Shown piece by piece: positions 5,741-40,572 of a stretch of 52,217 bases of DNA. Numbering within the stretch: position 1 is the first letter of the stretch; each line of letters begins with the position of its first letter. This stretch comes from Allokutzneria sp. NRRL B-24872. GTDB taxonomy: Bacteria > Actinomycetota > Actinomycetes > Mycobacteriales > Pseudonocardiaceae. The translations under genes and the position numbers were made by a program. Location: assembly GCF_002155965.1 (NCBI RefSeq), contig NZ_MUMH01000109.1, forward strand, positions 1-52,217, given 5' to 3'. A model generated the notes under the pieces. The model was not told where the DNA came from and did no database searches. It saw only the letters and a program-made list of their open reading frames with translations.

Positions 5741-5801
5741 TTGAACGCACTGAACGGGTCGTTTAGTGCGTTTGAAGTGCACCGAACGGCCCGTTCGGTG
5801 C
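5741..5801. repeat. Intergenic palindrome array, copy 1 (two units)
   Basis: Two palindromic units lie 32 bases apart: GCACTGAACG / CGTTTAGTGC (5747-5769, one wobble mismatch) and GCACCGAACG / CGTTCGGTGC (5779-5801, perfect), each with a three-base centre. They fill the gap between the convergent DoxX and TIGR03089 genes and end 12 bases from the latter's stop. They belong to the same family as the arrays at 24,989, 27,985 and 40,489. Confidence 0.65.
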
Positions 5802-5812
5802 GGTGGCCGGGG

Positions 5813-6520
5813 TCAGGTGGTGAGGTCGACGGTGATGCGTTCGGTGCGACGGCGGTCGGCGAGCTTGGCGGGGTCGGGGTTGGTGCACTGGACCAGCGCG
5901 CCGCCCGCGGCGATCACGGCGACGAGTCCGTCCACAATGGACTCCGGGGAGTGCCAGTCGAGGTCGGAGAGCACGCGGTCGCCCTCGGCGATGCCCTGCT
6001 CCGAAGCACGGGCGCGGGCCAGTGCCACCAACGCGTCCACGCTCAGCTCGTTCAGCGCGGGCTGCTCGCCGGGAACCACAGCGTAGGACCGGAAGAAGTC
6101 CCCGTGCACGCGGATCTCGCCGATGTAGTCCACGGTGCCGGGCTCGGGGTTGCGGATACCGCGGCCGAGCGGGTCGAGCGCGACCGCGGCGATGGTCTCG
6201 GCCTCCACCTCGAACCCTTGCGGCACAAAGGCGACTTCGAAGTCACCGGCGGCGGGATCGGTCACCACGGACGCGCCCGCCCACCACGAGCCGAGCAGCA
6301 CGCCGACGGTCTGCCAGTGCGCGGGCAGGGCGACGAGCACCCGCGCCCCGGGCTCCAGGAACACCTCGTCCCGCAGCCAGTTCGCCGTCTTCGCCGCCCA
6401 GTTCGCCACCGTCGCCCGCGACAGCTCGATGCGCGTGCCGTCGGCGTCGTCGTAGTGGCTGACCAGGGGCTTGGCCGAGTCGGTCATCAGCGGGGCGAAC
6501 AGGGCTTCGGTGACGTTCAT
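5813..6520 (-). CDS. TIGR03089 family protein
   Basis: The 235-residue product starts MNVTEALFAPL and matches my memory of TIGR03089, a protein found next to LCP and rhamnose genes in Actinobacteria (Rv3268 in M. tuberculosis). It looks like a shortened relative of the N-terminal part of acyl-adenylating enzymes (LSRATVANWAAKTANWLRDE, then ARVLVALPAHWQTVGVLLGS) but lacks the catalytic C-terminal part. Function unknown. The ATG at 6518-6520 was preferred over the longer frame up to 6682, whose first 54 residues overlap the upstream gene and are not protein-like. It ends close to array copy 1 and follows the LCP gene after 28 bases, so they are probably co-transcribed. Confidence 0.75.
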   Translation of the reverse strand: MNVTEALFAPLMTDSAKPLVSHYDDADGTRIELSRATVANWAAKTANWLRDEVFLEPGARVLVALPAHWQTVGVLLGSWWAGASVVTDPAAGDFEVAFVPQGFEVEAETIAAVALDPLGRGIRNPEPGTVDYIGEIRVHGDFFRSYAVVPGEQPALNELSVDALVALARARASEQGIAEGDRVLSDLDWHSPESIVDGLVAVIAAGGALVQCTNPDPAKLADRRRTERITVDLTT

Positions 6521-6548
6521 CAGCTGGTCGTCTCCACTCGTCGCGAGG

Positions 6549-7847
6549 TCAGTACACGCAGGGGATGCCGTCCGCGGTGATCGGCTCCTCGCTGGTGTTC
6601 GGCTGGTGGGCCGCAGCGCGGGAGGCACCGCCGTCCAGTCTGAGCGGACCGCGCCCGGCCATCTTCGGCGGGGTACCACCAACGAGGCCGCTCACCCACG
6701 CCCGGACCGCGTTCTTGTCCACGGCCACGATGCTCTGGCCGCGATCGTTGCGCGCGTTGATGTTCACCACCGGGATGGTGCGGAACTCGAAGCTGCCGCC
6801 CGCGAGCCCCTGGAACTGCCGCACCAGGTTCAGCGGCTCCCAGCCCTCGTCGAAGACCAGCGACTTGCGCGCGGCCTCGAACAGCGCGGACAGCTTCGCC
6901 GGATCGGTGAGCGTGCCGCTGGAGAGCATCTTCTTCACCACGGCGGCCATGAACACCTGCTGCCGCACGACGCGGTCGATGTCCCCGCGCGGCAGGCCGG
7001 AGCGCTGCCGGACGAACGCGAGCGCGTCCCCGCCTGCGATGGACTGCCTGCCCCTGCGGAAGTCCGCGCCGGAGTCCGGGTCGCTGGTGGACTGGCGCAG
7101 GCACACCTCGACCCCGCCGAGCGCCTCGGTCAGCAGGTAGAAGCCGTACAGGTTGATCTCCGCGTAGTGGTCGATCCGCAGCCCGGTCAGCTCCTGCACC
7201 GCGCGGCCGAGCGCGAGCCTGCCCGCCTGGTCGGACTCGCGCTCGCGGCGGCCGCGGTCGGTCACGCGCTGGGCGTCCAGCTCGGTGAGCCGCCGGTTCT
7301 TGCCGAGCACGTACGCGGCGTTGATCTTGGCGTCCTCGAAGCCGGGCACCGCGACGTAGGTGTCCCTGGGGATCGAGATCGCGGTCGCCTTGCCGCCGTT
7401 GTCCGGGATGCGCAGCACGATGATCGTGTCGGTGTTGAGGCTGGCGTTGGCCTCGGTGCGCAGCTTGCGCAGCACGCTCGGCGGCAGCTCGTTGCCCTGC
7501 GCGTCGGTGCGGCTGTCGCTGCCGACCAGCAGGATGTCCGTCGCGCCGTCGCGGGCGGGGGGCGCGCCCGGCTGGCTGCCGAGCTGGTTCACCACGTCGG
7601 TCGTGCTGACGTTGTCCTGCAAGCGTTCCAGTGTCGCCCAGCTCACTCCGCTGACCGCGAGCGCGGCAACGGACAGCAGCGCGGTGAGCACCCGGACGGC
7701 GTTGACCGCGATCCGCTTCCCCCTGCCCCGCCCGGGTTCCGCGCTCGACGGCTCGTCGGGTTCGTCGAGCGCGTCGAGTTCGGCGGGGTCCAGCGGCACG
7801 AACTTCTCGGGCTCGTCGTCCTCGTTCGGGCGCGGCCGGTCCGGCAC
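6549..7847 (-). CDS. LCP (LytR-CpsA-Psr) family cell-wall polymer ligase
   Basis: The 432-residue protein has an acidic cytoplasmic N-terminus, one membrane segment (about residues 45 to 70) and an extracellular LCP domain from about residue 100: DILLVGSDSRTDAQGNELP, SIPRDTYV, and the arginine-rich DIDRVVRQQ motif that binds the lipid diphosphate. LCP enzymes move arabinogalactan or other glycopolymers from lipid carrier onto peptidoglycan. It lacks the C-terminal LytR_C domain of its neighbour but shares the same tail, ADGIPCVY here. It is the second of two tandem LCP genes and lies next to the dTDP-rhamnose genes that make the linkage-unit sugar. Confidence 0.9.
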   Translation of the reverse strand: MPDRPRPNEDDEPEKFVPLDPAELDALDEPDEPSSAEPGRGRGKRIAVNAVRVLTALLSVAALAVSGVSWATLERLQDNVSTTDVVNQLGSQPGAPPARDGATDILLVGSDSRTDAQGNELPPSVLRKLRTEANASLNTDTIIVLRIPDNGGKATAISIPRDTYVAVPGFEDAKINAAYVLGKNRRLTELDAQRVTDRGRRERESDQAGRLALGRAVQELTGLRIDHYAEINLYGFYLLTEALGGVEVCLRQSTSDPDSGADFRRGRQSIAGGDALAFVRQRSGLPRGDIDRVVRQQVFMAAVVKKMLSSGTLTDPAKLSALFEAARKSLVFDEGWEPLNLVRQFQGLAGGSFEFRTIPVVNINARNDRGQSIVAVDKNAVRAWVSGLVGGTPPKMAGRGPLRLDGGASRAAAHQPNTSEEPITADGIPCVY

Positions 7848-7988
7848 GTGCTCCTCCTAGCGGAAATGGCGGGACAACGTGGAAAAGCGGCCGCTCCGCC
7901 GGGACCGAACGCCCGCGGGAGCCGCTACCCCAAGGCTAGCCAGCTCCACGCAGGTCACCGTACTTCTTAGTCCACCCGTTCGTGCCCT

Positions 7989-9824
7989 TTAGTTGATGCA
8001 GGGGATGCCGTCGGGCGTGGTCTCGGTCTGCTGGCCCTGGTTCGGCGCCGCCGGACGGAGCCCGTTCAGCTCCAGCAGCGGCTGCGCGGCCACGTTGTTC
8101 TTCTTGCCGGGCCCCGAGTAGTCCTTGCCGATGAACAGCCGAACGGTCCCCGCGGGGATCATCCGGTCCTTGTCCTCTTCGAGCACCGCGCCGCCGCCGA
8201 GCGCCTCGACGACCTTCTTGCCGAAGTCCTGCTGTCCCCTGGAGTAGCGCACGACGGTCTTCGCCCGCGAGACGGCGTTGTCGACGTTGCCCTTGGCGAA
8301 ACCCTTGGCCACCAAGGCGTCCAGCACGTCGTTGGCCAGTCCGGACGCGCCGGTGGCGTTGCGCACCTCGACGGTGATCGCCTTGTTGTCGGTCGCCGCG
8401 CCACCACCGGAGGGCGGTGTCGTCGAGGGCGCTGGTGGCTGCTCCTTGGTCTGGTTGGCCACGAAGTCCTTGACCTGCTTCGGGTCCACCTTGAGCGCGT
8501 CGCCGTCGCTGGTCTTGATGTCGCCCTCGATCGGGATGGTCTTGAACTCCACCCCGCCCGACATGACCGTCTGCATCTGCTGGGCGAACTGGAGCAGGTC
8601 CATGTTCTTGTCCACCACCACGGACTTCTTCACGGCGTTGACCAGCCCGGTCAGCTTGCCCGGGTCGGTCAGCGTGCCCGCCGAGGTGACCTTCTTCGCC
8701 ATCGACTTGAGGAAGGTCTGCTGGCGCACGATCCGGTCGAGGTCGCTGGGCAGGCCGTGCCGCTGCCGGACGAAGGCCAGCGCCTGCGCGCCCTCGATGG
8801 TCTGCACGCCCTTGGGGAAGTTCGCCCCGGACATGCTGTCCTTGGTCGCGGCCTTGAGGCAGACCTCGACACCGCCGATGGCCTTGGTGATCTCGTAGAA
8901 ACTGGCCAGGTTCACCTCGGCGTAGTGGTCGACGGTGACCCCGGTGAGCGCGCCGACCGTTTCCACCATGCCCTTGCGGCCCGCCGACGTGGACTCCTGC
9001 TCGACCTGCTGCTTGCTCTTGCCAGCGGCGCGCAGCTTCTTCGCGGCGGCGTTCTTGTTGAACGAGTACGCGGCGTTGATCTTGTGTTTGCCGAAGCCGC
9101 CCGAGATGTCCACGTAGGAGTCGCGCGGCAGCGAGATGCCGACCGGCTTCCCGTCGACCGGGATGTGCACCAGGATCATCGAGTCCGTGGTGTTGCCGCC
9201 CGCGTCACTGGCCCCGGCGTGCAGCTCGCGCAGCACCTCGGCCGGCAGCTCGTTGCCCTGCGCGTCGGTGCGGCTGTCCAGCCCGACCATCAGGATGTCG
9301 AGCGCGCCGTCCAGCGGCTTCGGGCCCTTCTGGGCCTCGGTGACGTCGTCGGTGGTGAAGTCGTTGAGCGTGCCCCACGCGTAGCCGGTGACGCACAACA
9401 CGATCACGGAGACCATCGCCGCGACGGTCTTGCCCGGGTGGAGCTTGCGCTTGGAAGCCGCCGCGCTCGCGGGCGCTGCCGCCGCCGAGCGCTTGGTGGT
9501 CCGCGCGCTCGGCTCGCGGGGAGCTTCGGAGCGCACGCGAGCGGTCTTGCGCGCCGGGGGCGGTCCCTGCGGCACGACGCGGGCATCGCGCGAGCGCCCT
9601 GCGCCCGCGGGCTGAGCACCCTGGCGGGGAGGCTGGCGGCGCGGCGGCTCACCGGGCGGGACCCGGTCGGCGGGAGGGGGAACGGCTCGTCCTCGACCGC
9701 CACCACCCGAGCCGGGAGGCTGCGATCGTCCCTGCTGGCCGGGCGTGGGCCTGCCGGGCTGGCTCCTCGGAACCCCGCGCCTGGGATTTCCCCCGGGCCG
9801 CATCGGCCGGTCGTCCACTCTCAC
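7989..9824 (-). CDS. LCP family ligase with LytR_C domain
   Basis: The 611-residue protein has a long Pro/Arg-rich cytoplasmic region (residues 1 to about 130), one membrane segment (TVAAMVSVIVLCVTGYAWG), an LCP domain with DILMVGLDSRTDAQGNELP, SLPRDSYV and DLDRIVRQQ, and a C-terminal LytR_C domain beginning ITVEVRNATGASGLANDVL. It ends PDGIPCIN. The GTG at 9824 follows GGGGAGGAG. It probably arose with the shorter LCP gene by duplication: the domain order and several motifs are the same. A 141-base gap separates the two and a divergent gap of 208 bases separates it from rmlB. Confidence 0.9.
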   Translation of the reverse strand: MRVDDRPMRPGGNPRRGVPRSQPGRPTPGQQGRSQPPGSGGGGRGRAVPPPADRVPPGEPPRRQPPRQGAQPAGAGRSRDARVVPQGPPPARKTARVRSEAPREPSARTTKRSAAAAPASAAASKRKLHPGKTVAAMVSVIVLCVTGYAWGTLNDFTTDDVTEAQKGPKPLDGALDILMVGLDSRTDAQGNELPAEVLRELHAGASDAGGNTTDSMILVHIPVDGKPVGISLPRDSYVDISGGFGKHKINAAYSFNKNAAAKKLRAAGKSKQQVEQESTSAGRKGMVETVGALTGVTVDHYAEVNLASFYEITKAIGGVEVCLKAATKDSMSGANFPKGVQTIEGAQALAFVRQRHGLPSDLDRIVRQQTFLKSMAKKVTSAGTLTDPGKLTGLVNAVKKSVVVDKNMDLLQFAQQMQTVMSGGVEFKTIPIEGDIKTSDGDALKVDPKQVKDFVANQTKEQPPAPSTTPPSGGGAATDNKAITVEVRNATGASGLANDVLDALVAKGFAKGNVDNAVSRAKTVVRYSRGQQDFGKKVVEALGGGAVLEEDKDRMIPAGTVRLFIGKDYSGPGKKNNVAAQPLLELNGLRPAAPNQGQQTETTPDGIPCIN

Positions 9825-10032
9825 TCCTCCCCGTCACTCGAACAGCTCGCGTCACGCCACCTGTGACCTCCCAGGCTAACGGCGTGCTGTCGCCTGGCCG
9901 GGCGACTCCCCGGTCTTGGGAGGACGTACCGCCCTTCCATCGGGTTGCTTCGAGAGTCACTACCCCTGTTCAGGCCCGTGGCAGACTTCGCGGCAGCGGG
10001 TACACCCAATGGGGGACTGGAGAGTGGAGACG

Positions 10033-11016
10033 ATGCGCGTACTGGTCACCGGGGGCGCCGGGTTCATCGGGTCGAACTACGTGCGCAAGGTGCTGACCGG
10101 CGCCTACCCGGTCTTCGCCGAGGCCGAGGTCGTGGTGCTGGACAAGCTCACCTACGCCGGGAACGAGGCCAACCTCGACCCCGTCGCGAGCCACCCGCGC
10201 CACCGCTTCATCAAGGGCGACATCTGCGACGCCGCGCTCGTGAACGAGGTCATGGTCGGCGTCTCGACCGTGGTGCACTTCGCCGCCGAGTCGCACGTGG
10301 ACCGCTCCATCCACGGTGCGTCGGACTTCGTGCTGACCAACGTGCTCGGCACGCAGACGCTGCTCCAGGCCGCTCTGGAGTCGGGCGTGTCGAAGTTCGT
10401 GCACGTGTCCACCGACGAGGTCTACGGCTCCATCGAGACCGGTTCGTGGACCGAGGAGCACATCCTGGAGCCGAACTCGCCGTACTCCGCGGCGAAGGCG
10501 TCCTCAGACCTGCTGGCCCGTTCGTACTTCCGCACCCACGGGCTGCCGGTGTGCATCACGCGCTGCTCGAACAACTACGGGCCCTACCACTTCCCCGAGA
10601 AGGTCATCCCGCTGTTCGTCACCAACCTGCTCGACGGGCACAAGGTGCCGCTCTACGGCGACGGCCTCAACGTCCGCGACTGGCTGCACGTTGACGACCA
10701 CTGCCGGGGCATCCAGCTCGTCGCCGAGGGCGGCCGGGCCGGTGAGATCTACAACATCGGCGGCGGCACCGAGCTGACCAACCGCGAGCTGACCGAGCAG
10801 CTGATCGCCGCGACCGGCAGGGACTGGTCGATGGTGGAGCCCGTCGCAGACCGCCTCGGCCACGACCGCCGCTACTCGGTGGACTGCACCAAGATCAGCA
10901 ACGAGCTGGGCTACTCGGCACAGGTGCCGTTCGAGCAGGGCCTCGCCGACGTGGTCGCCTGGTACCGCGACAACCGCTCCTGGTGGGAGCCGCTGAAGGA
11001 GCGCGCCGCGCTCTAG
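10033..11016 (+). CDS. rmlB: dTDP-glucose 4,6-dehydratase
   Basis: The 327-residue SDR enzyme turns dTDP-glucose into dTDP-4-keto-6-deoxyglucose, step two of dTDP-rhamnose synthesis. Visible are the NAD motif VTGGAGFIGS at the N-terminus, the STDEVYG motif, the YSAAK catalytic Tyr/Lys pair, and the NNYGPYHFPEK segment typical of RmlB. The ATG at 10033 was chosen because MRVLVTGG is the normal family start and GTGGAGA lies upstream; the open frame extends 39 codons further without similarity. rmlD follows after nine bases. rmlA and rmlC are not in this window. Confidence 0.95.
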   Translation: MRVLVTGGAGFIGSNYVRKVLTGAYPVFAEAEVVVLDKLTYAGNEANLDPVASHPRHRFIKGDICDAALVNEVMVGVSTVVHFAAESHVDRSIHGASDFVLTNVLGTQTLLQAALESGVSKFVHVSTDEVYGSIETGSWTEEHILEPNSPYSAAKASSDLLARSYFRTHGLPVCITRCSNNYGPYHFPEKVIPLFVTNLLDGHKVPLYGDGLNVRDWLHVDDHCRGIQLVAEGGRAGEIYNIGGGTELTNRELTEQLIAATGRDWSMVEPVADRLGHDRRYSVDCTKISNELGYSAQVPFEQGLADVVAWYRDNRSWWEPLKERAAL

Positions 11017-11025
11017 GCTGGCGCG

Positions 11026-11931
11026 GTGACCGACTTCGCTCTCCTCGTCCCCGGCGGTCGCGGTCAGCTCGGCGCGGACATCTCCGCACTGGCTGAGACC
11101 GCGGGCGCCGGGTTCGTGCACGCGCCCGGCTCCGCCGAACTGGACATCACCGACGCCGAGGCGGTCGCCGACGCCGTCAGCTCGCTCGCCACCACGGCAC
11201 GCGACGCGGGTCTGCGGCCCGTGGTGATCAACGCGGCTGCTTACACCGCCGTGGATGCCGCGGAGACCGATGAGGCCCGTGCGCTCGAAGTGAACGGTGA
11301 CGGCCCGCGCAACCTCGCGGCCGCATGCGCCGAACAGCGCGTTCGGTTGCTGCACGTCTCCACGGACTACGTGTTCCCCGGAGACGCCACAAGCCCCTAC
11401 GAGCCCGCTGATGCGACAGAGCCGCGCACTGCCTACGGCCGCACGAAGCTCGCGGGGGAGCGCGCGGTGCTCGACTCAGGCGCTGAGGCGTGGGTCGTGC
11501 GCACGGCGTGGGTCTACGGCGCGGTCGGCGGCAACTTCGTGAAGACGATGGCGAAGTTGGAGGCCCAGCGCGACAAGCTGACCGTTGTCGGCGACCAGGT
11601 GGGTTGTCCGACGTGGTCGGCCGATCTCGCGCGTGGCTTGCTGGAGCTCGCCGCGCTCGCCGAGGGCCCGAAGCAGCGCGTTCTGCACGCGGCGGGCGGT
11701 GGCGAGACCAGCTGGTACGGCTTCGCGCGCGCTGTCTTTGAAGAGCTCGGCGCGGACCCCACGCGCATTTCTCCGTGCACTACGGCGGACTTCCCGCGTC
11801 CAGCGCCACGGCCCGCGTACTCGGTGCTGTCGCCGCGCGCGTGGCAGGAGGCTGGGCTGAGCCCGCTGCGCCCGTGGCGTGAAGCGCTGGCGGCTGCGTT
11901 CGCGGAGCACGGGGAAGCGCTGCGATCCTGA
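11026..11931 (+). CDS. rmlD: dTDP-4-dehydrorhamnose reductase
   Basis: The 301-residue protein performs the last step of dTDP-L-rhamnose synthesis. It has an N-terminal nucleotide-binding loop (PGGRGQLGADI), the STDYVFPGD motif, the catalytic YGRTKLAGE motif and the late motif VGDQVGCPTWSADLA. It starts with GTG nine bases after rmlB, so the two form an operon. Its order next to LCP genes agrees with Rv3266c in M. tuberculosis. Confidence 0.93.
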   Translation: MTDFALLVPGGRGQLGADISALAETAGAGFVHAPGSAELDITDAEAVADAVSSLATTARDAGLRPVVINAAAYTAVDAAETDEARALEVNGDGPRNLAAACAEQRVRLLHVSTDYVFPGDATSPYEPADATEPRTAYGRTKLAGERAVLDSGAEAWVVRTAWVYGAVGGNFVKTMAKLEAQRDKLTVVGDQVGCPTWSADLARGLLELAALAEGPKQRVLHAAGGGETSWYGFARAVFEELGADPTRISPCTTADFPRPAPRPAYSVLSPRAWQEAGLSPLRPWREALAAAFAEHGEALRS

Positions 11932-11965
11932 TCACGTACTGACGGCGACACCGGGGAGCGCGCGC

Positions 11966-12511
11966 ATGGCGAAGTGGGGCAGGCAGCCCGAGGCGGAGTC
12001 CACGTCCAAGCCCAAGCGGCGCAAAGCGGGCTGGACCAAGCTCACCGGCACACTGCTGATGATCGTGGTGGTAGGCGCGCTGGGCTACCTGTTGGCCAAC
12101 ACCGCCCTCACCGCCAACCGTCTGCCCAACCCAAGCGCGAGCGACCTGCGCGGCACTGCCGTCACGCAGTCCTGCGCGGACGTGGGACCGGTCGGCTCCA
12201 ACGGCTTCGGGAAGTACTCGCGGTGCACCGCGGAGGTGTCGTGGGAGAACGGCACGCGCGAGACCCGCGAGTTCGACGGTGGCGAACTGACCGTGAAGGA
12301 CATCGGGCAGTCCGTGCGCGTTGTTCGGGTGACCACGCCGCCGTACTCGTGGTTGCCCGCACCGGAGTCTTATCAGCGCGAAGGCGGCGACCGTGCGGGT
12401 GAGTGGACTGCGACGCTGATCTACGTGATCGTCGGCGGCGTGATCCTGGTGAGCGGCGCTGCGGTGCTCGGCGGACTGCTCTCCTTCATCCGAGGCATCT
12501 TCGCCCGCTAG
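11966..12511 (+). CDS. Small membrane protein with two membrane segments, function unknown
   Basis: The 181-residue protein has a basic N-terminus, one membrane segment at about residues 30 to 52 (LTGTLLMIVVVGALGYLLAN), an outside part with two cysteines (QSCADVG and SRCTAEV) that could form a disulfide, and a second membrane segment near the C-terminus (IYVIVGGVILVSGAAVLGG). I do not recognise a functional family. It follows rmlD after 34 bases in the same direction and its 3' end overlaps the convergent lyase gene by four bases. Confidence 0.75.
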   Translation: MAKWGRQPEAESTSKPKRRKAGWTKLTGTLLMIVVVGALGYLLANTALTANRLPNPSASDLRGTAVTQSCADVGPVGSNGFGKYSRCTAEVSWENGTRETREFDGGELTVKDIGQSVRVVRVTTPPYSWLPAPESYQREGGDRAGEWTATLIYVIVGGVILVSGAAVLGGLLSFIRGIFAR

Positions 12512-13407: not shown

Positions 13408-13417
13408 CGACCCGCCC

Positions 13418-13427
13418 TTGTATACAA
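13418..13427. promoter_or_regulatory. FadR-type GntR operator 1
   Basis: TTGTATACAA is a perfect palindrome matching the FadR-subfamily pattern TNGTNNNACNA in its core GTATAC. It lies 11 bases upstream of the lyase start codon, in the gap shared with the divergent GntR gene. Confidence 0.6.
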
Positions 13428-13491
13428 CTTCCTGGCTGGTTGAAGGATTGATTTCCGCAGACAGTTGTGTCAAGCCGAATTGGACTCTAAT

Positions 13492-13501: not shown

Positions 13502-13538
13502 AAGATCGGTAGGCTGGGGACCGACCGCGTCGACGACG

Positions 13539-14192: not shown

Positions 14193-14199
14193 ACACGCC

Positions 14200-24988: not shown

Positions 24989-25165
24989 CCCCGAACGCCC
25001 CCTCAGGTACTTCAACGCCCCGAACGGCCCTTTCGGGTACTTGAACTCCCCGAACGACCCGTTCAGGTACTTGGGAGCCCTGAACGGCCCTTTCGGGTAC
25101 TTGGGAGGAGCACTGAACGACCCGTTCAGTGCGCTCAACGCACCAATCGGGCCGTTCGCTCGCGG
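24989..25165. repeat. Intergenic palindrome array, copy 2 (six units)
   Basis: Six units start at 24989, 25018, 25048, 25078, 25111 and 25141, so the period is 29, 30, 30, 33 and 30 bases. Typical units read CCCCGAACGGCCCTTTCGGG then TACTTGAACT. Each unit holds a palindrome; the fifth is perfect (CACTGAACG / CGTTCAGTG with a three-base centre). Units are too divergent and too short-spaced for CRISPR. This is the only copy of the family not between convergent genes. Confidence 0.7.
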
Positions 25166-25197: not shown

Positions 25198-25216
25198 AAC
25201 CAATGCGGCATTGGTT
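25198..25216. repeat. Perfect 19-base palindrome
   Basis: AACCAATGC and GCATTGGTT flank a single G. It lies between array copy 2 and the WbbL-like gene, 304 bases before that start. It could be an operator. The rest of the gap, 25,217-25,520, is GC-rich, holds one GTCCACTGTGGAC palindrome (25255-25267), and otherwise shows nothing I can name. Confidence 0.4.
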
Positions 25217-25520: not shown

Positions 25521-26393
25521 GTGACCCGCGAACCCAAGTCCTACGGTGACGAGCTCGGCGTGATCACGGTGACGTACTCGCCGGGGGAGACCCTGGGCAG
25601 ATTCCTGGACACGCTGGCCAAGGCGACCAGCCGCGACGTGCGCGTGGTGCTCGCGGACAACGGCTCGACGGACGGGGTGCCCGAGGCTGCGGCCGCTGAG
25701 CGGGAGAACGTCGAGTTCCTGCCGACGGGCGGCAACCTGGGCTACGGCGGTGGCGCGAACCGAGGGGTGGCGGCGCTGCCGGACTCGGTGGGCTGGGTCG
25801 TGGTGGCCAACCCGGACCTGGAGTGGGGCGACGGCTCGCTGGACGAGCTGATCACGGCGGCGCGGCGGTGGCCGAGGGGTGGCGCGTTCGGGCCGCTGAT
25901 CCGCGAACCCGACGGCGAGGTGTACCCGTCGGCGCGGTTGCTGCCGGAGCTGGGGCGGGGCATCGGCCACGCGCTGTTCAGCAAGGTCTGGGCGGGCAAC
26001 CCGTGGACCAAGCAGTACCGCCAGGAGGACAAGGCCGTCCGCGAGCGCGTCGCGGGGTGGCTGTCCGGCTCGTGCCTGCTGATGCGGCGCGAGGCCTTCG
26101 ACTCGGTCGCCGGGTTCGACCCGCGCTACTTCATGTTCTTCGAGGACGTCGACCTCGGCGACCGGCTGACCCGCAAGGGCTGGCAGAACGTCTACGTGCC
26201 CTCCGCCGAGGTCGTGCACATCGGCGGGGTCTCCACGGCGAAGGTCAAGCCGAAGATGCTGGCGGCGCACCACGACAGCGCCTACCGCTACCTCGCCGAC
26301 CGGCACCCCGGCCCGCTCTGGGCGCCCGTCCGCCTGGCGATCAAGGCCGGTCTGGCGCTGCGCCTGAAGCTCGAGGTCCGCGGCGCGCGCTAG
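25521..26393 (+). CDS. GT2 rhamnosyltransferase, WbbL-like
   Basis: The 290-residue GT-A enzyme has ITVTYSPGETLGRFLDTLA, VLADNGSTDG, the NPDLEWGDGS metal motif and the FFEDVDLGDRLTRKGW motif. In mycobacteria the WbbL rhamnosyltransferase (Rv3265c) adds rhamnose from dTDP-rhamnose to GlcNAc-PP-decaprenol, making the linker that joins arabinogalactan to peptidoglycan. The same neighbour, a nucleotidyltransferase, is present here. The GTG at 25521 was chosen because similarity to the family begins there; the frame is open to 25203 without recognisable sequence. The 3' end overlaps the convergent small gene by four bases. Confidence 0.85.
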   Translation: MTREPKSYGDELGVITVTYSPGETLGRFLDTLAKATSRDVRVVLADNGSTDGVPEAAAAERENVEFLPTGGNLGYGGGANRGVAALPDSVGWVVVANPDLEWGDGSLDELITAARRWPRGGAFGPLIREPDGEVYPSARLLPELGRGIGHALFSKVWAGNPWTKQYRQEDKAVRERVAGWLSGSCLLMRREAFDSVAGFDPRYFMFFEDVDLGDRLTRKGWQNVYVPSAEVVHIGGVSTAKVKPKMLAAHHDSAYRYLADRHPGPLWAPVRLAIKAGLALRLKLEVRGAR

Positions 26394-27968: not shown

Positions 27969-27984
27969 CCCTCCGCCAATGCCG

Positions 27985-28055
27985 CGTTTGTGTGGTTGAG
28001 CGTGCTGAATGAGTCATTGAGGCGGCTCAACCACCTCAACGAGTCATTCAGCACG
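27985..28055. repeat. Intergenic palindrome array, copy 3 (two units, large hairpin)
   Basis: Units at 28004 and 28034 are exactly 30 bases apart. The segment 27992-28034 folds as 21 + 1 + 21 bases, 17 of 21 pairs matching (outer arm GTGGTTGAGC / GCTCAACCAC after allowing mismatches). Read on the minus strand the array agrees with the array at 40,489 in 58 of 70 positions. It lies between the convergent nucleotidyltransferase and phospholipase-D-like genes and may end both transcripts. Confidence 0.7.
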
Positions 28056-28091
28056 TAAGACCCACGCGGCGCTCCGGGCTGCGGCGCGGGG

Positions 28092-31803: not shown

Positions 31804-31826
31804 GCGGAACTCAGCCTCCCCCTGGC

Positions 31827-32920: not shown

Positions 32921-32943
32921 TCTCCGGGTAAGGGAGGGAGAGA

Positions 32944-32977
32944 GGGCCGCGTGCCGACCCCAGGCGGCACGCGGCCC
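32944..32977 (+). terminator. Terminator between convergent secreted-protein and NUDIX genes
   Basis: A perfect 13-bp stem GGGCCGCGTGCCG / CGGCACGCGGCCC with an eight-base loop lies 24 bases after the secreted-protein stop and 14 bases from the end of the convergent NUDIX gene; it could serve both directions. Confidence 0.8.
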
Positions 32978-32990
32978 CACTACCGCAGGT

Positions 32991-33530: not shown

Positions 33531-34888
33531 AGTTCGACCAGTCCTTCCGCGAGCTCGCGCGGCGGGCGCGGGCTCGGATCGCCGTCCAACGGGTGCCCGA
33601 CCGCGACGCCGCCCAGCGGCTCCCAGTTCGCGGGCAGGTCCAGCACGCCCCGAACCACGTCGGGGCAGAAGATCGTCGAGGAAACCCAGCAGGAGCCCAG
33701 TTCCTCGGCCGCCAGCGCGACGAGCAGGCCCTGCACGGCGGCTCCACCGGCGACGGTGAACATCGTCCGCTCGGCCTCGGACCTGAGCGCGTCCGGGTAG
33801 CTGTGCGCGCCGTCGCGAACGAGGAACGGCAGCACGATCTCCGGTGCCTCGTAAAGGATTCGGCCTCGTCCAACGCGGCGCTCGATGCGCTCGGGAGTCA
33901 TCCCGTCACCGGTCAGATCCGCCCGCCAGGCCTCGGTCATCGCGTCGAGCAGCTTCGCCCGCAGCGCGCGGTCGCGCAGCCACACGAAGCGCACGGGGCG
34001 GGTGTGGTGCGGCGCGGGCGCGGTCAGCGCGGCGGCGACCGCCCTGCGCACCGCGTCGGCGTCGACGGGGCGGTCGTGGTCGTAGAAGCGGACGGAGCGC
34101 CGCGTCAGCACCGCCTCGCGCCGACCCTGCGCGATGGCCAGATCGGTGCCGAGCCGGAACAGGTCCTCTTCCAACGGCCGCAACAGGTCCCGTGCCGTCG
34201 ACCCATCGTCCACATAGGACATTCCGCGCACCACGGCGACGGGTGTCCCGCCGAGCTTGCCCTTGACCAGGTCGCCGGCGGCGGCCAGCTCGTCGGCGAT
34301 GGCGATCATGGTCACCGCGAGCTCGTTGCCCTGCGCGTCGATCTTGCCCTGGTAGCCGTGGATCACCGGCAGCCCGGCCGAGCCGATCGCGACGTCGGTC
34401 TGGCCGATCCGCCACGTCCGGCCCATCGTGTCAGTGATCACCACGGCCACGTCCACGCCGAGCTCGTCCTTGACGCCCGCGCGCAGTGCGGCAGCCGAGG
34501 CGTCGGGGTCCTCCGGCAGCAACGCGATCTCGTCGGTCGCGACGTTGGAGGCGTCCACTCCGGCCGCGGCCTGGATGATGCCGAGGCGGTTGCGGGTGAT
34601 CAGCGTGCTGCGGAACTGGGCGACGACGGCGTCGGACTCGGCGCGCACCAGCTCCCTGCGCAGCTTCTCCCGGCCCTCCTTGTCGCGGGGCGCCGTGACC
34701 AGTCGTCCCTCCACTTTGGACACGACCTTGCTGGTCACCACGAGCACGTCGCCCTCGCGCAGCCACGGCGCCGCCGAGGTGATCGCGCCGAGCAGGTCAT
34801 CACCCGGGCGGAACTCCGGAAGCCCTTCGACCGCAAGCACTTCGACCTTCGGCGAAGCGTGGTCGGCGGGGGCGGTGGTTTCGGTCAC
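33527..34888 (-). CDS. fbiB: Coenzyme F420:L-glutamate ligase / dehydro-F420 reductase
   Basis: The 453-residue protein has the CofE-type ligase domain in its first 245 residues ([55 protein letters not shown]) and a nitroreductase-like FMN domain in the C-terminal 200 residues ([32 protein letters not shown]). The two-domain form is the actinobacterial FbiB, which adds glutamates to F420-0 and reduces the dehydro precursor. The GTG start overlaps the fbiA stop by four bases. Operon order fbiA-fbiB-NUDIX. Confidence 0.95.
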
Positions 34889-35886
34889 GCTGACACTCCC
34901 GCGAGAGAGAACGCCTCGGCCACCATCGCCGAGGTGGCGTCGACATCGGTCATGAGCATCGGCGCGGACACCACCCGGACACCGGGAACGTCCGCGCGGT
35001 CGCCGGTGTGCACCAGCCAGCCGTCCAGCAGCCCGTCGGCGGAGGCGGTCCGGGAGCCGTAGTGCCTGCCGACCGCCTGCGCGCTGGTCTCGACGCCGAT
35101 CGCGGTCAGGCACGCGTCGGCCATGCCCCGCAGCGGCTTGCCGTCGATGATCGGCGAGATCCCGATCACCGGCGCCTTGCCCTCGCGCAGCGCGGTCCTG
35201 ATGCCGGGCACCGCCAGCACGGTGCCGACGCTGACCACCGGGTTCGACGGGGCGAGCAGCACCACGTCGGCCTCGGCGATCGCCTCCAGCACGCCGGGAG
35301 CGGGCTTGGCCTCGTCGGCGCCGACCGCGACGATCGCGTGCGCGGGCAGCGAGGCGCGGTGGCGCACCCACCATTCCTGGAAGTGCACAGCGCGGCGCTC
35401 ACCGGAGTCCGGGTCGTCGATCGCCACGTGCGTCTCCACGCGGTCGTCGCTGGCGGGCAGCAGGCTCACCCCTGGCTGCCACCGGTCGCACAGCGCGGCG
35501 GTCACCTCGGAGAGCGGGAAGCCCGCGCGCAGCATCCTGGACCGGATCAGGTGTGTCGCGATGTCCCGGTCACCGAGCCCGAACCACGTCGGGTCGGCGC
35601 CGTAGGCCGCCAGCTCCTCCTTGACCGTCCAGCTCTCCCCGGCCCGGCCCCAACCCCGCTCGGAGTCGATCCCGCCGCCGAGGGTGTACATGCAGGTGTC
35701 CAGATCTGGACAGATCCGCAGCCCGTGCATCCACACGTCGTCGCCGGTGTTCACCAGCGCCGTGATCCGGTGCGGGGACTCGGTCGCCCCGGCAGCGACA
35801 CCGACTGCGGGCATGCCGAGCGCGGCCTTCACCCCCAGCAGGAACCGGGCTCCGCCAACACCGCCGACCAGCACAACGACCTTCAC
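34885..35886 (-). CDS. fbiA: 2-phospho-L-lactate transferase (phosphoenolpyruvate transferase), F420 synthesis
   Basis: The 333-residue CofD-family protein begins [20 protein letters not shown] and contains [35 protein letters not shown] and [18 protein letters not shown], which line the Fo and nucleotide sites. It joins Fo to the phospho-three-carbon unit, giving F420-0 or its dehydro form. The GTG at 35884-35886 was chosen because the conserved N-terminus starts there. It is the first gene of the operon and corresponds to Rv3261. Confidence 0.95.
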
Positions 35887-35924
35887 GAAGGGCCATCCTC
35901 GCACGCGCGGTCCCGGCGCCGGGC

Positions 35925-36674
35925 TCAACGCCAGAACATGAACATGTACTGCCCCAGGAACGCGGCGAGGTCGTTCCCGCCGACGAGCCCGAACAGGGCC
36001 TGGGACACGCTGTGGAACGCCGCGCCGATCGGCGGAATTCCGATCAGCACCGCGAACAGCACCAGCGGCGCCCACTGGCGGGCCTTCGCGCCCATCTCCT
36101 GCCAGCGGTAGGGCAGGTAGGGCTCGAGCGCGCCGTACCCGTCGAGACCGGGCACCGGCAGGATGTTCAGCACGAAGGCCATCACCTGCAGCAGCGCCAG
36201 GTAGGACAGCCCCGCGGCCAGTCCCGGTGCCGGTTGGGTGATCGTCACGGCCAGTGCGAGAACGATTCCGAGAACCAGGTTTGCCAGCGGCCCGGCAAGG
36301 GAAACAGCGGACTCAGCCCGCTTGTCGCGCAGCGCGTGCCGGTTGATCCAGACCGCGCCGCCGGGAAGCGGGATGCCGCCGATCGCCAGGAAGAGCAACG
36401 GGAGCAGCAGGCTGAGCACTGGATCGGTGTAGCGGCGCGGGTCGAGGGTCAGGTAGCCCTTGAACACCACCGAGTGGTCACCCCCGCGGTAGGCGAAGAA
36501 CGCGTGCCCGAACTCGTGCAGGCACAAAGAAGCCGTCCACCCCCCAAGAACCGTGAGCACGATGCCGATGGTCATGACGACCTGGTTGTCCACAGTAGAC
36601 AGGAAGCAGCCGACAGCAGTGATCGCCAGGATGAGCAGGAACAGGGGGCTCGGTCGTACCGCTTGTCGGATCAC
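35925..36674 (-). CDS. Site-2-protease-like membrane metallopeptidase (M50)
   Basis: The 249-residue protein has six hydrophobic segments, the zinc motif HEFGH in TASLCLHEFGHAFFAYRGG and the third-ligand motif LNILPVPGLDGYGALEP, as in M50 peptidases. It would cut membrane-embedded substrates such as anti-sigma factors; no such partner is seen nearby. It lies 38 bases upstream of fbiA in the same direction and could be co-transcribed with it, and it is divergent from whiB2. The palindrome variant GTCCACAGTAGAC lies inside it at 36588. Confidence 0.85.
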   Translation of the reverse strand: MIRQAVRPSPLFLLILAITAVGCFLSTVDNQVVMTIGIVLTVLGGWTASLCLHEFGHAFFAYRGGDHSVVFKGYLTLDPRRYTDPVLSLLLPLLFLAIGGIPLPGGAVWINRHALRDKRAESAVSLAGPLANLVLGIVLALAVTITQPAPGLAAGLSYLALLQVMAFVLNILPVPGLDGYGALEPYLPYRWQEMGAKARQWAPLVLFAVLIGIPPIGAAFHSVSQALFGLVGGNDLAAFLGQYMFMFWR

Positions 36675-36745
36675 GCGGCCAGTCTGCCCGTGCCCGCGTG
36701 GGCGTTTCCAGCCGCATGGGGGGTCCCCCGTCGTGTGTACTTGGC

Positions 36746-36788
36746 TTGACCCCCTTGCATCACACGGGTGTAATCACATTGGTGTCAT
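36746..36788 (+). promoter_or_regulatory. whiB2 promoter with two tandem palindromic sites
   Basis: TTGACC (36746-36751) and TGTAAT (36769-36774) are 17 bases apart, a good -35/-10 pair. A palindrome ATCACACGGGTGTAAT (36759-36774) covers the spacer and the -10, and a second copy of the same design, ATCACATTGGTGTCAT (36773-36788), follows 14 bases on. A repressor bound to these sites would block the promoter. The regulator is unknown. Confidence 0.55.
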
Positions 36789-36851
36789 TCGCCGGGAGAG
36801 AGGGCGAATGGGTCCGCCAACCGGGGAGCGGAAGGCGAGGAGGCGGACGTG

Positions 36852-37220
36852 ATGAAGGACGAAGGAAACCGCGTGGGGTCGCGGGGGGAAGCCGCGCCCA
36901 CGAGCATCGGGGTCATCGCCGACCTGTTCGAGAGCGACGATGACGAGTTCGACTGGCAGGAAGAAGCGCTGTGCGCGCAAACGGACCCGGAGGCGTTCTT
37001 CCCCGAGAAGGGCGGTTCCACCCGTGAGGCCAAGCGCATCTGCGGCGGCTGCGCCGTCCGGTCGGAATGCCTCGAATACGCACTCGCGCACGACGAACGC
37101 TTCGGCATTTGGGGCGGTTTGTCCGAGCGCGAGCGGCGGAAGCTGAAGAAGCGGCCGGAAGACGTGCTCCTGATGGACGGCAGCCTCGCCGTCGAACAGG
37201 TGGACGGGCTGACCGCCTGA
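36852..37220 (+). CDS. whiB2: WhiB-family iron-sulfur regulator (WhiB2 / WhmD type)
   Basis: The 122-residue protein has the four-cysteine pattern of WhiB proteins: one Cys in EEALCAQTDPEAFFPEKG, then CGGC and SEC in RICGGCAVRSECLEYALA, followed by the turn motif FGIWGGLSERERR and a basic tail (KLKKR). It binds a 4Fe-4S cluster and works with the main sigma factor in cell division or sporulation. The ATG at 36852 and the GTG just before it are both possible after GGAGG. The gene order with fbiA and the DUF3499 gene matches Rv3260c. Confidence 0.95.
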   Translation: MKDEGNRVGSRGEAAPTSIGVIADLFESDDDEFDWQEEALCAQTDPEAFFPEKGGSTREAKRICGGCAVRSECLEYALAHDERFGIWGGLSERERRKLKKRPEDVLLMDGSLAVEQVDGLTA

Positions 37221-37243
37221 GTGCCGGACGGTGCTGACGCCGT

Positions 37244-37275
37244 AACGTGACCCCGTAAGCGCTCGGGGTCACGTT
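37244..37275 (+). terminator. whiB2 terminator
   Basis: A perfect 12-bp stem AACGTGACCCCG / CGGGGTCACGTT with an eight-base loop lies 24 bases after the whiB2 stop and 20 bases before the next start, which should largely separate the two genes. Confidence 0.75.
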
Positions 37276-37295
37276 CGGCAGCGGGAGGCCATGCG

Positions 37296-40200
37296 GTGGC
37301 GGGGTTGTCGCATGTCGATCGCGGTACTCCGCTGCTGCGGACCGCGCCGGTGCTCGCCGTCCTGGTCTGCCACGACGCCGATCCCTGGCTCGACGACGCG
37401 CTCGCCGCACTGCGCGCGCTCACCCTGCGGCCGAGGCACGTCCTGGCCGTGGACACCGGTTCCGTCGACGGCACAGCGGAAACGCTGCGCGCCGCGTGCA
37501 CCGGTGTCGACAAGACCCTCGACGGCGTTCTCACGCTGCCGAGGGAGACCGGGTTCGGAGCCGCCAGCGCCGCCGCCGTGACCGCGGCGTTGCAGCGCTG
37601 GGGTGATCCCGGCCAGTGGATCTGGCTGCTGCACGACGACTGCGCGCCCGAACCCGACTGCCTCGCCGCGCTGCTGACGGTCGCCGAGGTGTCCCCGTCC
37701 GCCGCCGTGCTGGGCCCGCTCTGTCTGGAGTGGACAGATCCCAGGCTGGTGGTCGAAGCGGGCGTCTCCACCGACTCCTCCGGGCACCGGCAGACCGGAC
37801 TCGGGCCGGACGAGCTGGACTGGGGCCGCTACGGCGAGCCCGGGACGGTCGGCGTCTGGATCGAGCAGAACACCGAGGCACTGGCCGTGTCCTCCGCCGG
37901 AGCGCTGGTGCGCCGCGAGGTCTGGCAGAAGCTGCACGGCTTCGACGAGGCGTTGCCGCTGTTCGGTGACGACATCGATTTCGGCTGGCGGGCGAATCTC
38001 GCCGGGTACGTGGTGATCGTCGTGCCAGCCGCGCGAATCCGGCACGCCGCCGCCGCGTCGAAGGGCAAACGTTCGCTCGACGCGCTCGACCGGAATTCCG
38101 GACTGTCCCGCGGTTTCCTCGCAACGCGGGCACGGCGGGAACACGGTCTGCGCACGGTTCTGGTCAACGGCACGCTGTTGTCGTTCCTTCTCGGACTGCC
38201 CCGGTTGGCGATTCTCGGGCTGCTGCGCGGAATCGGATTCGCCTTGCTGCGGCGGTTTTCCGAGGCGCGCGCGGAACTGAGCGCGACCGCGCGACTGCTC
38301 AGCGGGCGAACCGGGCTCCTCGCCGCTCGACGTGATCGACGCTTTCACCGAGATCCGGACGCGCGCGATGTTCGCGGACTGTTCACCTCGCGCTTGACCA
38401 GGCTGCGCAACGCTTTCCGCGGCGGATTGATCCACTTCCTGCGCAGCAGGCTGCGCGCCGACGCCGCGCTCGGCAGGCTGCCCGCGCGCGCCGATCGCCT
38501 GCCGACCTGGGCACCGGTGGCCCAGGCCGGTCCGTCCGCGCTCCCCGCAGGAGCACTCGGGCGCGGCGGGCGGCCGAAACGCCAGGCAGCCGGGCTGCGC
38601 CGCCCAGCGCGCGCCGTCGTCGTGGAGGTCCCCGAGCCCGTCGCGTTCCGGCCGAGCCCCCGGCCGCGCGCTTCCGTCGAAGCTCCCGCGCTGGTGGTGG
38701 TCGAGGTCGATCGCGCTCGCGTCGTCCGCGAAGTGCTGCTGTCCCCGGCCGTGCTGCTCGTCGCCGTTCTGGCCCTGCTCGCTTGGGCGATCCACTCGGC
38801 CCGTTTTGGCGGAGTTCTCTCCGGTGGCGCTCTGCTGCCGATCGGTGATCTCGGGCAGACGTGGTCGGACTACCTGGCGAGCTGGCACGGGGTCGGCGGC
38901 GGCACCACGGCTTCGGCGACCCCCGCGCTCGCCGTGCTGGGCTCGCTCGGCGCGCTGCTCGGAGGACCGCCGGTCGCCGTCGCGGTGCTGCTGCTCGGAG
39001 ATCTGCCGCTGTCCGGCCTCGCCGGGTACCTCGCGACTCGGCGGCTTCGCGTGGCGCGGTGGGTTCGCGCGGTGGCTGCCGCGGGCTACGCGCTGCTGCC
39101 CGCCGCGACCGCCGCGACGGCGCAGGGCAGGCTCGATGTCGTTGTGGTGCACGTGTTCCTGCCGCTCGTGCTCGCGGGTGTCGTGGGTGCTGGCCAGCCC
39201 GGGGCGGGCTCCTGGCTGTCGCGCGCCTCGGGCACTGCGCTCGGCATCGCGGTGATCGGCGCGTTCTCGCCGCTGACCCACGTGCTGGTGCTCGTCGTCG
39301 CGGTGATCGCGTTCGTGCTCATGGGTGGGCGCGTGCTCACGTTGGCGGCGATCGTGTTGCTGCCCTTGGGTTTGCTGCTGCCGTGGCCCGCCGTGGTCGT
39401 GCAACACCCCGAAGTGCTGCTTCCCGGTGGCCCGTCGGCTTCCGCGCTCTCCCTCGCGGCGCTGAGCCCGGGCGGGCCCGGCGCCACGCCCTGGGTGGGC
39501 TTCGCGCTCCTCGCGGCGGTCCTGCTCGCGGTCGTCCTGTGCCCGCGCCGCGAGGTGCTGCCAGGCGTCGGGCTCGTGCTGCTCGGCGCCGTTGTGGTGG
39601 CGGTCGTGCCCGGTTTCGCGGGCGCTCCGCTGCTCCTCGTCGGCTGCGGGCTGCTGTGGATCTTGCTCGCCGCAGTGGCTCACGGAGCGCGGCCGCTGGC
39701 CTTCGCCGCGCCCGTGGTGCTGCTCTGGCTCGCTGTTGGCGCGCTCGTCGTGGGGCGCGAAGGTCCGTTGCGGGCGGGGGAGGAGGCGGTGCTCGGCAAG
39801 GCCCAGGCCGCTGAGCTGGCCGCGACCTCGTCCTGGCAGTTGATCGTCGACGAGCGGCCGTCGTTGGTGCTGGGCCGCTCACCGCGCTTCGGCGATCTTG
39901 AGCTTCGGCCGCGCACCCCCGCGATGGCCGCCGGCTTCACCAGCTTCGACCAACCCGTGGTGCGGGACGCGGTGTCCCGCGCGGCGGCGGCCGGAGTGCG
40001 CTTCGTCGTCCTGCCCGACTCGGAGACCGCGAGCCGCGTCCAGGCGTTCGCGGCCGACCTCGTGGCGACCGTTCCGGCGCGCTCCGACGGCCGGCCCGTG
40101 CTCCGCCTGCTCCGCGTCCAGCCGCCCGCCGTCCTGCTCCCCGCCGACGTCGGAGTGCTCGCGCGCTCCACCTCGCCGCCCCCGTCGGAGCTCCTCGGCG

Positions 40201-40499
40201 TGGTCCCCGTGCCCGGCGGAGCACCCTCGGTCGCCGTGCGGGTGTCGCGGGGAGCGGAGGCGCGGCTGCTCGTGCTCGCCGCCCTAGACGAGCCCGGCTG
40301 GCGCGCGTCGATCGACGGCGACCCCGCCAACCTCACCAGGGCCTGGGGCGGTCAGGTCGCGCTCACCCTCCCCGGCCGCGAGGTCGACGTCCGCGTCGAG
40401 GTTGCCACCGGTTCACGGGACGTCCTGCTCCTCGTCCAGGCCTTCGCTGCCCTCTTCGCCCTCCTCACCGCCCTCCCCACCCGCTTTCGTGCTGAATGA
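37296..40499 (+). CDS. GT2 glycosyltransferase fused to a large polytopic membrane region
   Basis: The 1067-residue protein has an N-terminal GT2 domain (VLAVLVCHDADPWLDDALAA, VDTGSVDGT, the LLHDDCAPEPD metal motif, LFGDDIDFGWRANL) up to about residue 270, a basic linker of about 200 residues, and then about a dozen membrane segments between residues 485 and 830. An outside C-terminal domain of about 180 residues and one last membrane segment follow. This suggests sugar transfer coupled to export or a second transfer outside the membrane. The GTG at 37296 follows GGGAGG. Its stop codon lies inside the first unit of repeat array copy 4. Confidence 0.85.
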   Translation: MAGLSHVDRGTPLLRTAPVLAVLVCHDADPWLDDALAALRALTLRPRHVLAVDTGSVDGTAETLRAACTGVDKTLDGVLTLPRETGFGAASAAAVTAALQRWGDPGQWIWLLHDDCAPEPDCLAALLTVAEVSPSAAVLGPLCLEWTDPRLVVEAGVSTDSSGHRQTGLGPDELDWGRYGEPGTVGVWIEQNTEALAVSSAGALVRREVWQKLHGFDEALPLFGDDIDFGWRANLAGYVVIVVPAARIRHAAAASKGKRSLDALDRNSGLSRGFLATRARREHGLRTVLVNGTLLSFLLGLPRLAILGLLRGIGFALLRRFSEARAELSATARLLSGRTGLLAARRDRRFHRDPDARDVRGLFTSRLTRLRNAFRGGLIHFLRSRLRADAALGRLPARADRLPTWAPVAQAGPSALPAGALGRGGRPKRQAAGLRRPARAVVVEVPEPVAFRPSPRPRASVEAPALVVVEVDRARVVREVLLSPAVLLVAVLALLAWAIHSARFGGVLSGGALLPIGDLGQTWSDYLASWHGVGGGTTASATPALAVLGSLGALLGGPPVAVAVLLLGDLPLSGLAGYLATRRLRVARWVRAVAAAGYALLPAATAATAQGRLDVVVVHVFLPLVLAGVVGAGQPGAGSWLSRASGTALGIAVIGAFSPLTHVLVLVVAVIAFVLMGGRVLTLAAIVLLPLGLLLPWPAVVVQHPEVLLPGGPSASALSLAALSPGGPGATPWVGFALLAAVLLAVVLCPRREVLPGVGLVLLGAVVVAVVPGFAGAPLLLVGCGLLWILLAAVAHGARPLAFAAPVVLLWLAVGALVVGREGPLRAGEEAVLGKAQAAELAATSSWQLIVDERPSLVLGRSPRFGDLELRPRTPAMAAGFTSFDQPVVRDAVSRAAAAGVRFVVLPDSETASRVQAFAADLVATVPARSDGRPVLRLLRVQPPAVLLPADVGVLARSTSPPPSELLGVVPVPGGAPSVAVRVSRGAEARLLVLAALDEPGWRASIDGDPANLTRAWGGQVALTLPGREVDVRVEVATGSRDVLLLVQAFAALFALLTALPTRFRAE

Positions 40500-40572
40500 C
40501 TCATTGGTGTGGTTGAACGCGCTGAATGACTCGTTCAGCACGTTCAACCACATGAACGAGTCATTCAGGTGG
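40489..40572. repeat. Intergenic palindrome array, copy 4 (three units, 43-base hairpin)
   Basis: Units at 40491, 40521 and 40551 are exactly 30 bases apart and read GCTGAATGACTCATT or close variants. The segment 40509-40551 folds as 21 + 1 + 21 bases with only two G-U-type mismatches (outer arm GTGGTTGAACG / CGTTCAACCAC). The first unit contains the TGA of the membrane glycosyltransferase. The array lies between convergent genes and is similar to copy 3 in the opposite orientation. Confidence 0.75.

Follow-up and report, generated by a model that had tools for sequence, protein, structure and literature searches.

Hairpin repeat arrays downstream of stop codons in Allokutzneria: a dispersed family with probable likeness to REPINs

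Introduction

What are the groups of short palindromes, mostly 30 bp apart, that stand in four places between the genes of a 52,217-nucleotide stretch of DNA from Allokutzneria sp. NRRL B-24872 (contig NZ_MUMH01000109.1 of assembly GCF_002155965.1; the whole stretch is here called the window, and the strain the host)? A sequence-only reading had known no named repeat family that fits, and had proposed paired terminators, sites for a DNA-binding protein or a short non-autonomous mobile repeat. The observation is real and it is genome-wide. The best-studied repeats of such shape are REPINs, which are tied to the RAYT transposase, and the arrays are probably a family of short dispersed hairpin repeats that work like REPINs, an inverted pair of cores being what would spread, fold into one long hairpin and accumulate after stop codons. 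The family is an abundant one in antibiotic-producing actinobacteria, and its host genus is without a RAYT match. Because each species has its own sequences at shared sites, two questions become open to test: by what route such repeats spread when the known enzyme is not there, and how transcripts are ended between convergent genes of GC-rich actinobacteria where a U-tract is lacking.

The four arrays of the window

5721 to 5802, no strand assigned: array 1, with cores at 5751-5765 and 5783-5797 and a degenerate unit, recognised by eye and in register, at 5721-5735
24992 to 25158, no strand assigned: array 2, with cores at 25051-25065, 25081-25095 and 25114-25128 and degenerate units at 24992-25006, 25021-25035 and 25144-25158
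27976 to 28055, no strand assigned: array 3, with cores at 28006-28020 and 28036-28050 and, at its left end, a degenerate unit at 27976-27990, CCAATGCCGCGTTTG
40481 to 40579, no strand assigned: array 4, with cores at 40493-40507, 40523-40537 and 40553-40567 within one 99-bp inverted repeat
40497 to 40499, plus strand: TGA stop codon that array 4, through its first core, supplies to the upstream gene (37350-40499)

All four stand where the sequence-only reading had placed them and with the spacing it gave, exactly 30 bp in the third and fourth and 29-33 bp in the first and second. Its total of 13 units falls between the 10 cores, spread over the four arrays, that have two or fewer mismatches to TGAAYGRNYCRTTCA and the 15 units reached when degenerate in-register ones are added by eye (those starting at 5721, 24992, 25021, 25144 and 27976). 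GAAYGRNYCRTTC is present 5 times in the window, where 100 shuffles give an expectation of 0.06 and in no case yield 5. By our own gene calls three of the four gaps are convergent, as had been claimed (5616+/5813- for array 1, 27968+/28092- for array 3 and 40499+/40624- for array 4), and the remaining one, that of array 2, is tandem (24978+/25521+, an overlapping weak gene call of score 16.6 being set aside). The claim that all are between genes gives way at array 4, where the upstream stop codon at 40497-40499 is inside the first core; the upstream gene's stop codon also opens three more host arrays, at C3 19384, at C7 47641 and as the first array of the C28 stretch (distance -3). All four arrays fold, with z of -5.2 for array 1 (5722-5806), -3.9 for array 2 (25040-25138) and -6.6 for array 3 (27975-28062), and array 4 (40479-40582) reaches -70 kcal/mol and z -12.4, its inverted repeat having 49-nt arms of 84% complementarity. 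Rfam gave no match in the window at gathering score or above. The repetitive conceptual peptide that had been pointed out is a consequence of the 30-bp period, and a coding repeat was considered and rejected on the gene calls, of which only two weak ones (scores 16.6 and 28.6) overlap arrays in the host.

A different palindrome, GTCCACNGTGGAC, occurs four times in the window (19274, 20294, 25255 and 30544) against 0.01 expected, and is the commonest 6-1-6 palindrome, runs of N being set aside, with 54 occurrences in the host sample described below and 36 per 800-kb sister sample.

How are the arrays built? The host sample (1,013,253 bp in 30 contigs or parts, with runs of N in its sequence) has 28 arrays with 109 units, from which array density is not to be extrapolated since the C1, C2, C3, C5, C6, C7, C20 and C28 stretches were taken for their known matches, and C8-C11, C13-C19, C21-C27, C29 and C30 by number. 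Spacing there is exactly 30 bp in 56 of 81 cases. The cores are of two subfamilies, split by their middle bases, and in 69 of the 78 scored host pairs neighbouring units are of one subfamily. Junctions that are out of register are found in 7 of 9 mixed-subfamily pairs versus 16 of 69 same-subfamily pairs in the host (Fisher p 0.002), and in 9 of 14 versus 20 of 97 when the sisters are included (p 0.0015), and so the arrays are joined blocks with the 30-bp period inside each. The number of units varies between arrays and between species, and a 55-bp two-core unit recurs at separate places in the host with 0, 1, 2 and 3 mismatches, there being 17 placements with up to 9. Candidate end modules of the form CCAATGCCGCGTTTGG were recognised by eye in only some of the arrays. 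Similar in look to these degenerate end units is the palindrome ACCAATGCGGCATTGGT, at 25199-25215 of the window in the gap ahead of the gene at 25521, with 3 more exact copies in 3 of 296 loci.

Distribution

Further copies in the genome, for which the sequence-only reading had advised a search, are far from few: TGAAYGANTCRTTCA has 147 copies in the host genome and the reversed-pattern control none. Copies inside genes were also looked for, and none of the 28 host-sample arrays is within a gene call scoring above 60. The host has 69 core pairs 30 bp apart; G034 has 14 and G068 has 28, and these two are the sister species among the three of Allokutzneria compared (800 kb of each, in one run syntenic with the window, served as sister samples). 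The single-core pattern is present in 53 of 297 genomes of the family, and its control matched 1 genome; it is frequent in six, namely the host (147), G238 (26), G068 (24), G277 (18), G034 (7) and G193 (5); each of the remaining 47 has 1 or 2 matches, mostly a lone TGAACGACTCGTTCA. This lone TGAACGACTCGTTCA, at 1-2 per genome, is found in many species of genus groups g8, g27 and g28 that have no arrays by the single-core pattern, and may be an unrelated conserved site.

With spacing left free, core pairs were detected in 42 of the 200 family genomes searched and in 14 of 46 genera, with up to 89 per genome, and the reversed pattern, palindromic and of the same composition, gave 0 in every part of that search. 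A class-wide scan for the 30-bp core pair found it in 2 of 394 genomes, the host being one. The scan of named genomes yielded at least 110 stretches; the matches listed are mostly from Amycolatopsis, and among them are also Saccharopolyspora, Halosaccharopolyspora, Actinomycetospora, Allokutzneria, Kutzneria, Gandjariella, Rhodococcus and Asanoa, though as the stretches were picked by pattern they are no measure of invariance in the core or in its 30-bp spacing. The repeat family is widespread in Pseudonocardiaceae, yet not limited to it. Core spacing varies by genus, being 23, 30 or 31 bp. Genus group g42 has the same core with 31-bp spacing and a GTCAC...GTGAC stem, and g22 the same core in arrays of 23-bp or 31-33-bp spacing.

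Two cores, one hairpin

Each core is nearly a palindrome in itself, so that two folds are in competition: local hairpins, which are small, and one long hairpin in which core 1 pairs with core 2. The palindromic core had been put forward as the feature; it exists, and the more general property is that two cores pair with each other rather than that one is a palindrome. A partner core 20-40 bp away (four or fewer mismatches) accompanies 44 of the 45 exact cores of the host sample, where chance would give 0.08, and 7 of 8 in G068 and 1 of 1 in G034. For 131 isolated pairs among the listed matches from named genomes, core-to-core pairing at the variable positions is 0.95 versus 0.48 expected, and local core pairing is likewise above chance (0.79 versus about 0.45); their arms pair outer with outer at 0.61 (0.39 expected), inner with inner at 0.67 (0.41) and locally at 0.51 (0.38). 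The 84 pairs from Allokutzneria have core-to-core pairing of 0.76 versus 0.62 expected (z 1.3 to 4.8), local pairing not above chance (0.64-0.65 versus 0.61-0.62) and inner spacers that are unpaired (0.51 versus 0.56 expected), the permutation controls for pairing being ones that leave the relatedness of copies in place. Sister copies fetched because they resemble array 3 commonly combine TGAATGAGTCATTGA with TCAATGACTCATTCA, by which the local palindromes are broken and the long hairpin is kept.

The first and last cores of whole arrays also pair, with 1 of 2000 permutations as good for 39 host and sister arrays and 0 of 2000 for 101 arrays among the listed named matches. Flipping whole arrays as a test for dyad symmetry gave z 0.3 in the host, 2.3 in the sisters and 7.9 in the named matches listed, and the negative host value is evidence against a strict array-wide dyad. 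By comparison of the copies, the conserved entity is the pair of cores, and across genera the two covary as one predicted long hairpin. An older stem enclosing the array, hinted at by eye in some convergent gaps, was rejected, as the 22 nt beyond the arrays pair no better than permuted ones: in such gaps permutations were as good in 928 of 2000 for the host and sisters and in 176 of 2000 for the named matches listed.

Could the pairs nevertheless be sites for a dimeric protein, nucleoid-associated or regulatory, that requires two palindromes 30 bp apart? Such a protein would suit a core motif that many genera share although their arms and spacers differ, with the reversed palindrome of the same composition at 0, though the motif was part of the search pattern and its recurrence across genera is therefore partly circular as evidence. 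A binding site would not, however, be expected to be so seldom alone (1 core in 45), to covary core with core, to have sister cores in which the local palindrome is commonly broken and the long hairpin kept, or to be spaced at 23, 30 or 31 bp according to genus. With the further difficulty of location given below, the protein-site proposal of the sequence-only reading is weakened and we regard it as rather improbable.

Position, and the ending of transcripts

Arrays of at least two units in the host and sisters are in 20 convergent, 15 tandem and 4 divergent gaps, with 4 at contig edges and 2 in called genes (both in G034), the boundaries being approximate since the gene calls come from our own codon-usage script. 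As convergent gaps are 405 of 2283 overall in Allokutzneria, arrays are enriched there (p 2e-6). The named loci among the matches listed have 51 convergent, 40 tandem and 4 divergent positions, 11 at contig edges and 9 in called genes, again with convergent gaps enriched (p 2e-12). By genus, and again for the matches listed, the convergent, tandem and divergent counts are 28, 20 and 2 in Amycolatopsis, 5, 1 and 0 in Saccharopolyspora with Halosaccharopolyspora, 3, 1 and 0 in Actinomycetospora and 2, 3 and 0 in Rhodococcus, a further 30 loci being without genus title. The median distance from an array to the stop codon that faces it is 39 nt in the host and 21.5 nt in the named loci listed. Divergent gaps, where promoters are, are depleted of arrays (p 0.003 in Allokutzneria and 2e-7 for the named matches listed), which is a point against sites for a DNA-binding protein. 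One divergent gap, at host C2 44524, has a two-core array that is kept in the host, G034 and G068, with outer arms that change together (CTCCC/GGGAG, GCGCAC/GTGCG, GCCC/GGG), and it adjoins a conserved TGTCTG...CAGACA palindrome.

Are the arrays then ordinary bidirectional terminators of the host, which arose and evolved locally in each gap with no copying between loci? Like intrinsic (Rho-independent) terminators they present a strong hairpin right behind a stop codon, and they favour the space between convergent genes. The three Allokutzneria samples have 18 convergent gaps of 0-600 nt with an array and 250 without one, and in the host such array-less gaps also have strong hairpins (median -27.5 kcal/mol versus -16.9 when shuffled). 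When the array is subtracted, a convergent gap is shorter than those that lack one, 29 versus 55 nt in Allokutzneria (p 0.018) and 15 versus 60.5 nt in the named matches listed (p 5e-4), as local terminators would allow. The whole gap with its array is longer, however (108.5 versus 55 and 105 versus 60.5, respectively), and the two differences together fit insertion with partial replacement. Moreover a U-tract is absent, a T run of at least four following in 2 of 334 array ends, so that the arrays fall outside the classical definition of an intrinsic terminator, from which they differ also in having a sequence that is common genome-wide. Part of PMC8355165 does discuss hairpins without a U trail as terminators. 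In the relevant part of PMC3049150, enrichment between convergent genes is described for BOX, RUP, SPRITE and IS elements and taken to indicate that such elements are parasitic, and position alone is therefore no proof of function. Of the paired terminators of the sequence-only reading, position and hairpin are borne out, and what goes against them is the lack of a U-tract, the array-less state of most convergent gaps and two sister sites, considered below, with neither an array nor another hairpin. A terminator role for the arrays is plausible but unproven.

Known repeats and the search for a moving enzyme

Are the arrays classical REPINs, moved by RAYT, a Y1 HUH transposase? With REP, REPIN and BIME elements they share short, high-copy, extragenic palindromic units, dispersal, a location at gene 3′ ends and inverted pairs able to form one long hairpin. 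They differ in the exact 30-bp concatenation into blocks, in the lack of a GTAG or CGTC tag and in the lack of a Y1 transposase in the host genus. GTAG is not enriched at array ends (1 of 48 in the host with 1.2 expected, 1 of 38 in the sisters with 1.1 expected, 7 of 241 in the named matches listed with 6.6 expected), nor is CGTC (7, 2 and 10, with 5.1, 4.3 and 33.7 expected, respectively). The RAYT family PF01797 was found neither in the host nor in its two sisters, nor in 16 of the 18 array-bearing genomes searched: the first 10 genomes scanned, 6 with arrays and 4 without core matches, gave 0, and a further 12 with arrays gave 2, of which G111 has two matches and G108 a marginal one. That a RAYT was overlooked through incomplete assembly of the host is unlikely because G034 is a single complete contig. 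Nor did a Pfam scan of 10 array neighbours, 6 at named loci and 4 in the window, give any transposase family, one gene being matchless. A RAYT-driven REPIN was on these grounds, the absence of PF01797 and of either tag, rejected as the explanation, and we consider it very improbable.

Two other systems invite comparison. The BOX elements of Streptococcus (boxA - boxB(n) - boxC) are likewise modular with variable tandem internal modules, a hairpin and over-representation between convergent genes, according to part of PMC3049150; the modules here differ in being self-palindromic 30-bp units, BOX is from another phylum, and the two are set apart by description. DNA uptake signals of Neisseria and Pasteurellaceae can, in inverted pairs, form hairpins that serve as terminators, and the portion of PMC1852404 that bears on this has them enriched between convergent genes. 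Might the arrays be such signals? They too have a sequence-specific motif, inverted pairs between convergent genes and lineage ‘dialects’, for which the same portion offers a parallel. By that account a genome generally has 1,000 or more uptake signals, whereas here there are 147 exact cores, nearly always paired, and 0 of 28 host arrays are in a well-supported gene, and to this explanation we give hardly any credence.

In the open-licence PMC literature no description of this hairpin-array family was found. The main text of the REP survey PMC3733652, as far as it bears on this, has no occurrence of Actinobacteria, and a table in the stem-loop survey PMC2267715 includes Mycobacterium and Corynebacterium. 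The arrays are best described as a dispersed hairpin repeat that works like REPINs and grows by modules like BOX; given the negative results for the tag and for the RAYT, they are not filed as REP or REPIN.

Turnover between sister species

Within the window each array has had its own fate in the sisters. The orthologous gap of array 1 is without an array in both. At the site of array 2 both have arrays, of differing sequence. At that of array 3, G068 has an array of other sequence and G034 an ordinary hairpin and no array, and in the place of array 4 both have single units. In 38 orthologous comparisons an array is present in 20 and absent in 18, these not being independent, as some sites were entered from two sides, and single or degenerate units cut by the gap border being scored as absent; for 2 of the 18 (host C3 26358) the sister gap exceeds 700 nt and may hold a gene outside the calls used. 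At least four sites have kept an array in two or three species, which is what locally maintained terminators would do, and the unit number at one site is 9 in G068 but 1 in G034. At host C3 19384 (gap 0 in G034) and at G068 151388 (gaps of 0 and 4 nt) the other species have no array and no hairpin to speak of, and the array is therefore not needed there, which is awkward for host terminators. Of the 18 comparisons in which the array is absent, 14 have another hairpin of -12 kcal/mol or better; that such a hairpin stands in for the array was set aside, there being no special evidence for it, as array-less gaps generally hold hairpins.

Also against terminators that evolved locally, which we think unlikely, are spacer words that dozens of unlinked loci in a single species have in identical form and that its sisters lack. 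GTGGTTNNNCGNRCTGAAYGANTC has 92 occurrences in the host and 0 in both G034 and G068; GGGAATCYAACGCCC has 51 in G068 and 0 in the host and G034. Where two species have arrays at one site, the orthologue is outscored by the best copy from another place in the same sampled genome in 19 of 20 comparisons. A choice of the best of many favours paralogues, however, and it is fairer to count all of them, of which on average 0.67 beat the orthologue. The orthologue is better than the median of the non-orthologous copies in its own genome in 13 of the 20. No target-site duplication was recognised by eye at the empty orthologous sites, where the flanks have diverged.

Of the three proposals of the sequence-only reading, the short non-autonomous mobile repeat is thus the best supported, by dispersed lineage-specific variants and by presence or absence at orthologous sites, although the agent that moves it was not found. 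For a dispersed hairpin repeat working like REPINs, the spreading entity would be an inverted pair of 15-bp cores, 30 bp apart in Allokutzneria, that folds into one long hairpin. In that genus pairs would have been joined into blocks of exact 30-bp period, with blocks of different subfamilies coming to lie side by side. The core pair would be copied to new sites and survive after stop codons, either because insertion is least harmful there or because a strong hairpin is useful there. Accumulation just after stop codons, chiefly between convergent genes, would then follow, and transcripts that come in from either side are probably ended or protected by the hairpin. We infer that copying between loci, be it transposition by an enzyme not found or gene conversion, made the lineage-specific variants; an effect of the arrays on transcript ends is suggested with less assurance.

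More tentatively, copying that is independent of RAYT may keep hundreds of dispersed 3′-end hairpins similar to one another in any one species, even as some of the positions they occupy are retained from species to species. If so, gene ends throughout the genome would evolve in concert and every lineage would come to have a hairpin ‘dialect’ of its own; insertion of new copies would favour places next to or within existing ones, and in this way the 30-bp arrays would be built.

A second long inverted-repeat element, with ends GTCTTCAAGTACC and GGTACTTGAAGAC (there are mismatches in its third and first copies), fills three gaps of G068. They are orthologous to host C2 8080 and to 132976 and 501498 of the G034 sample, places that in the host or G034 are taken up by a hairpin array. 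The end of this element and the arms of the arrays have AAGTACC in common.
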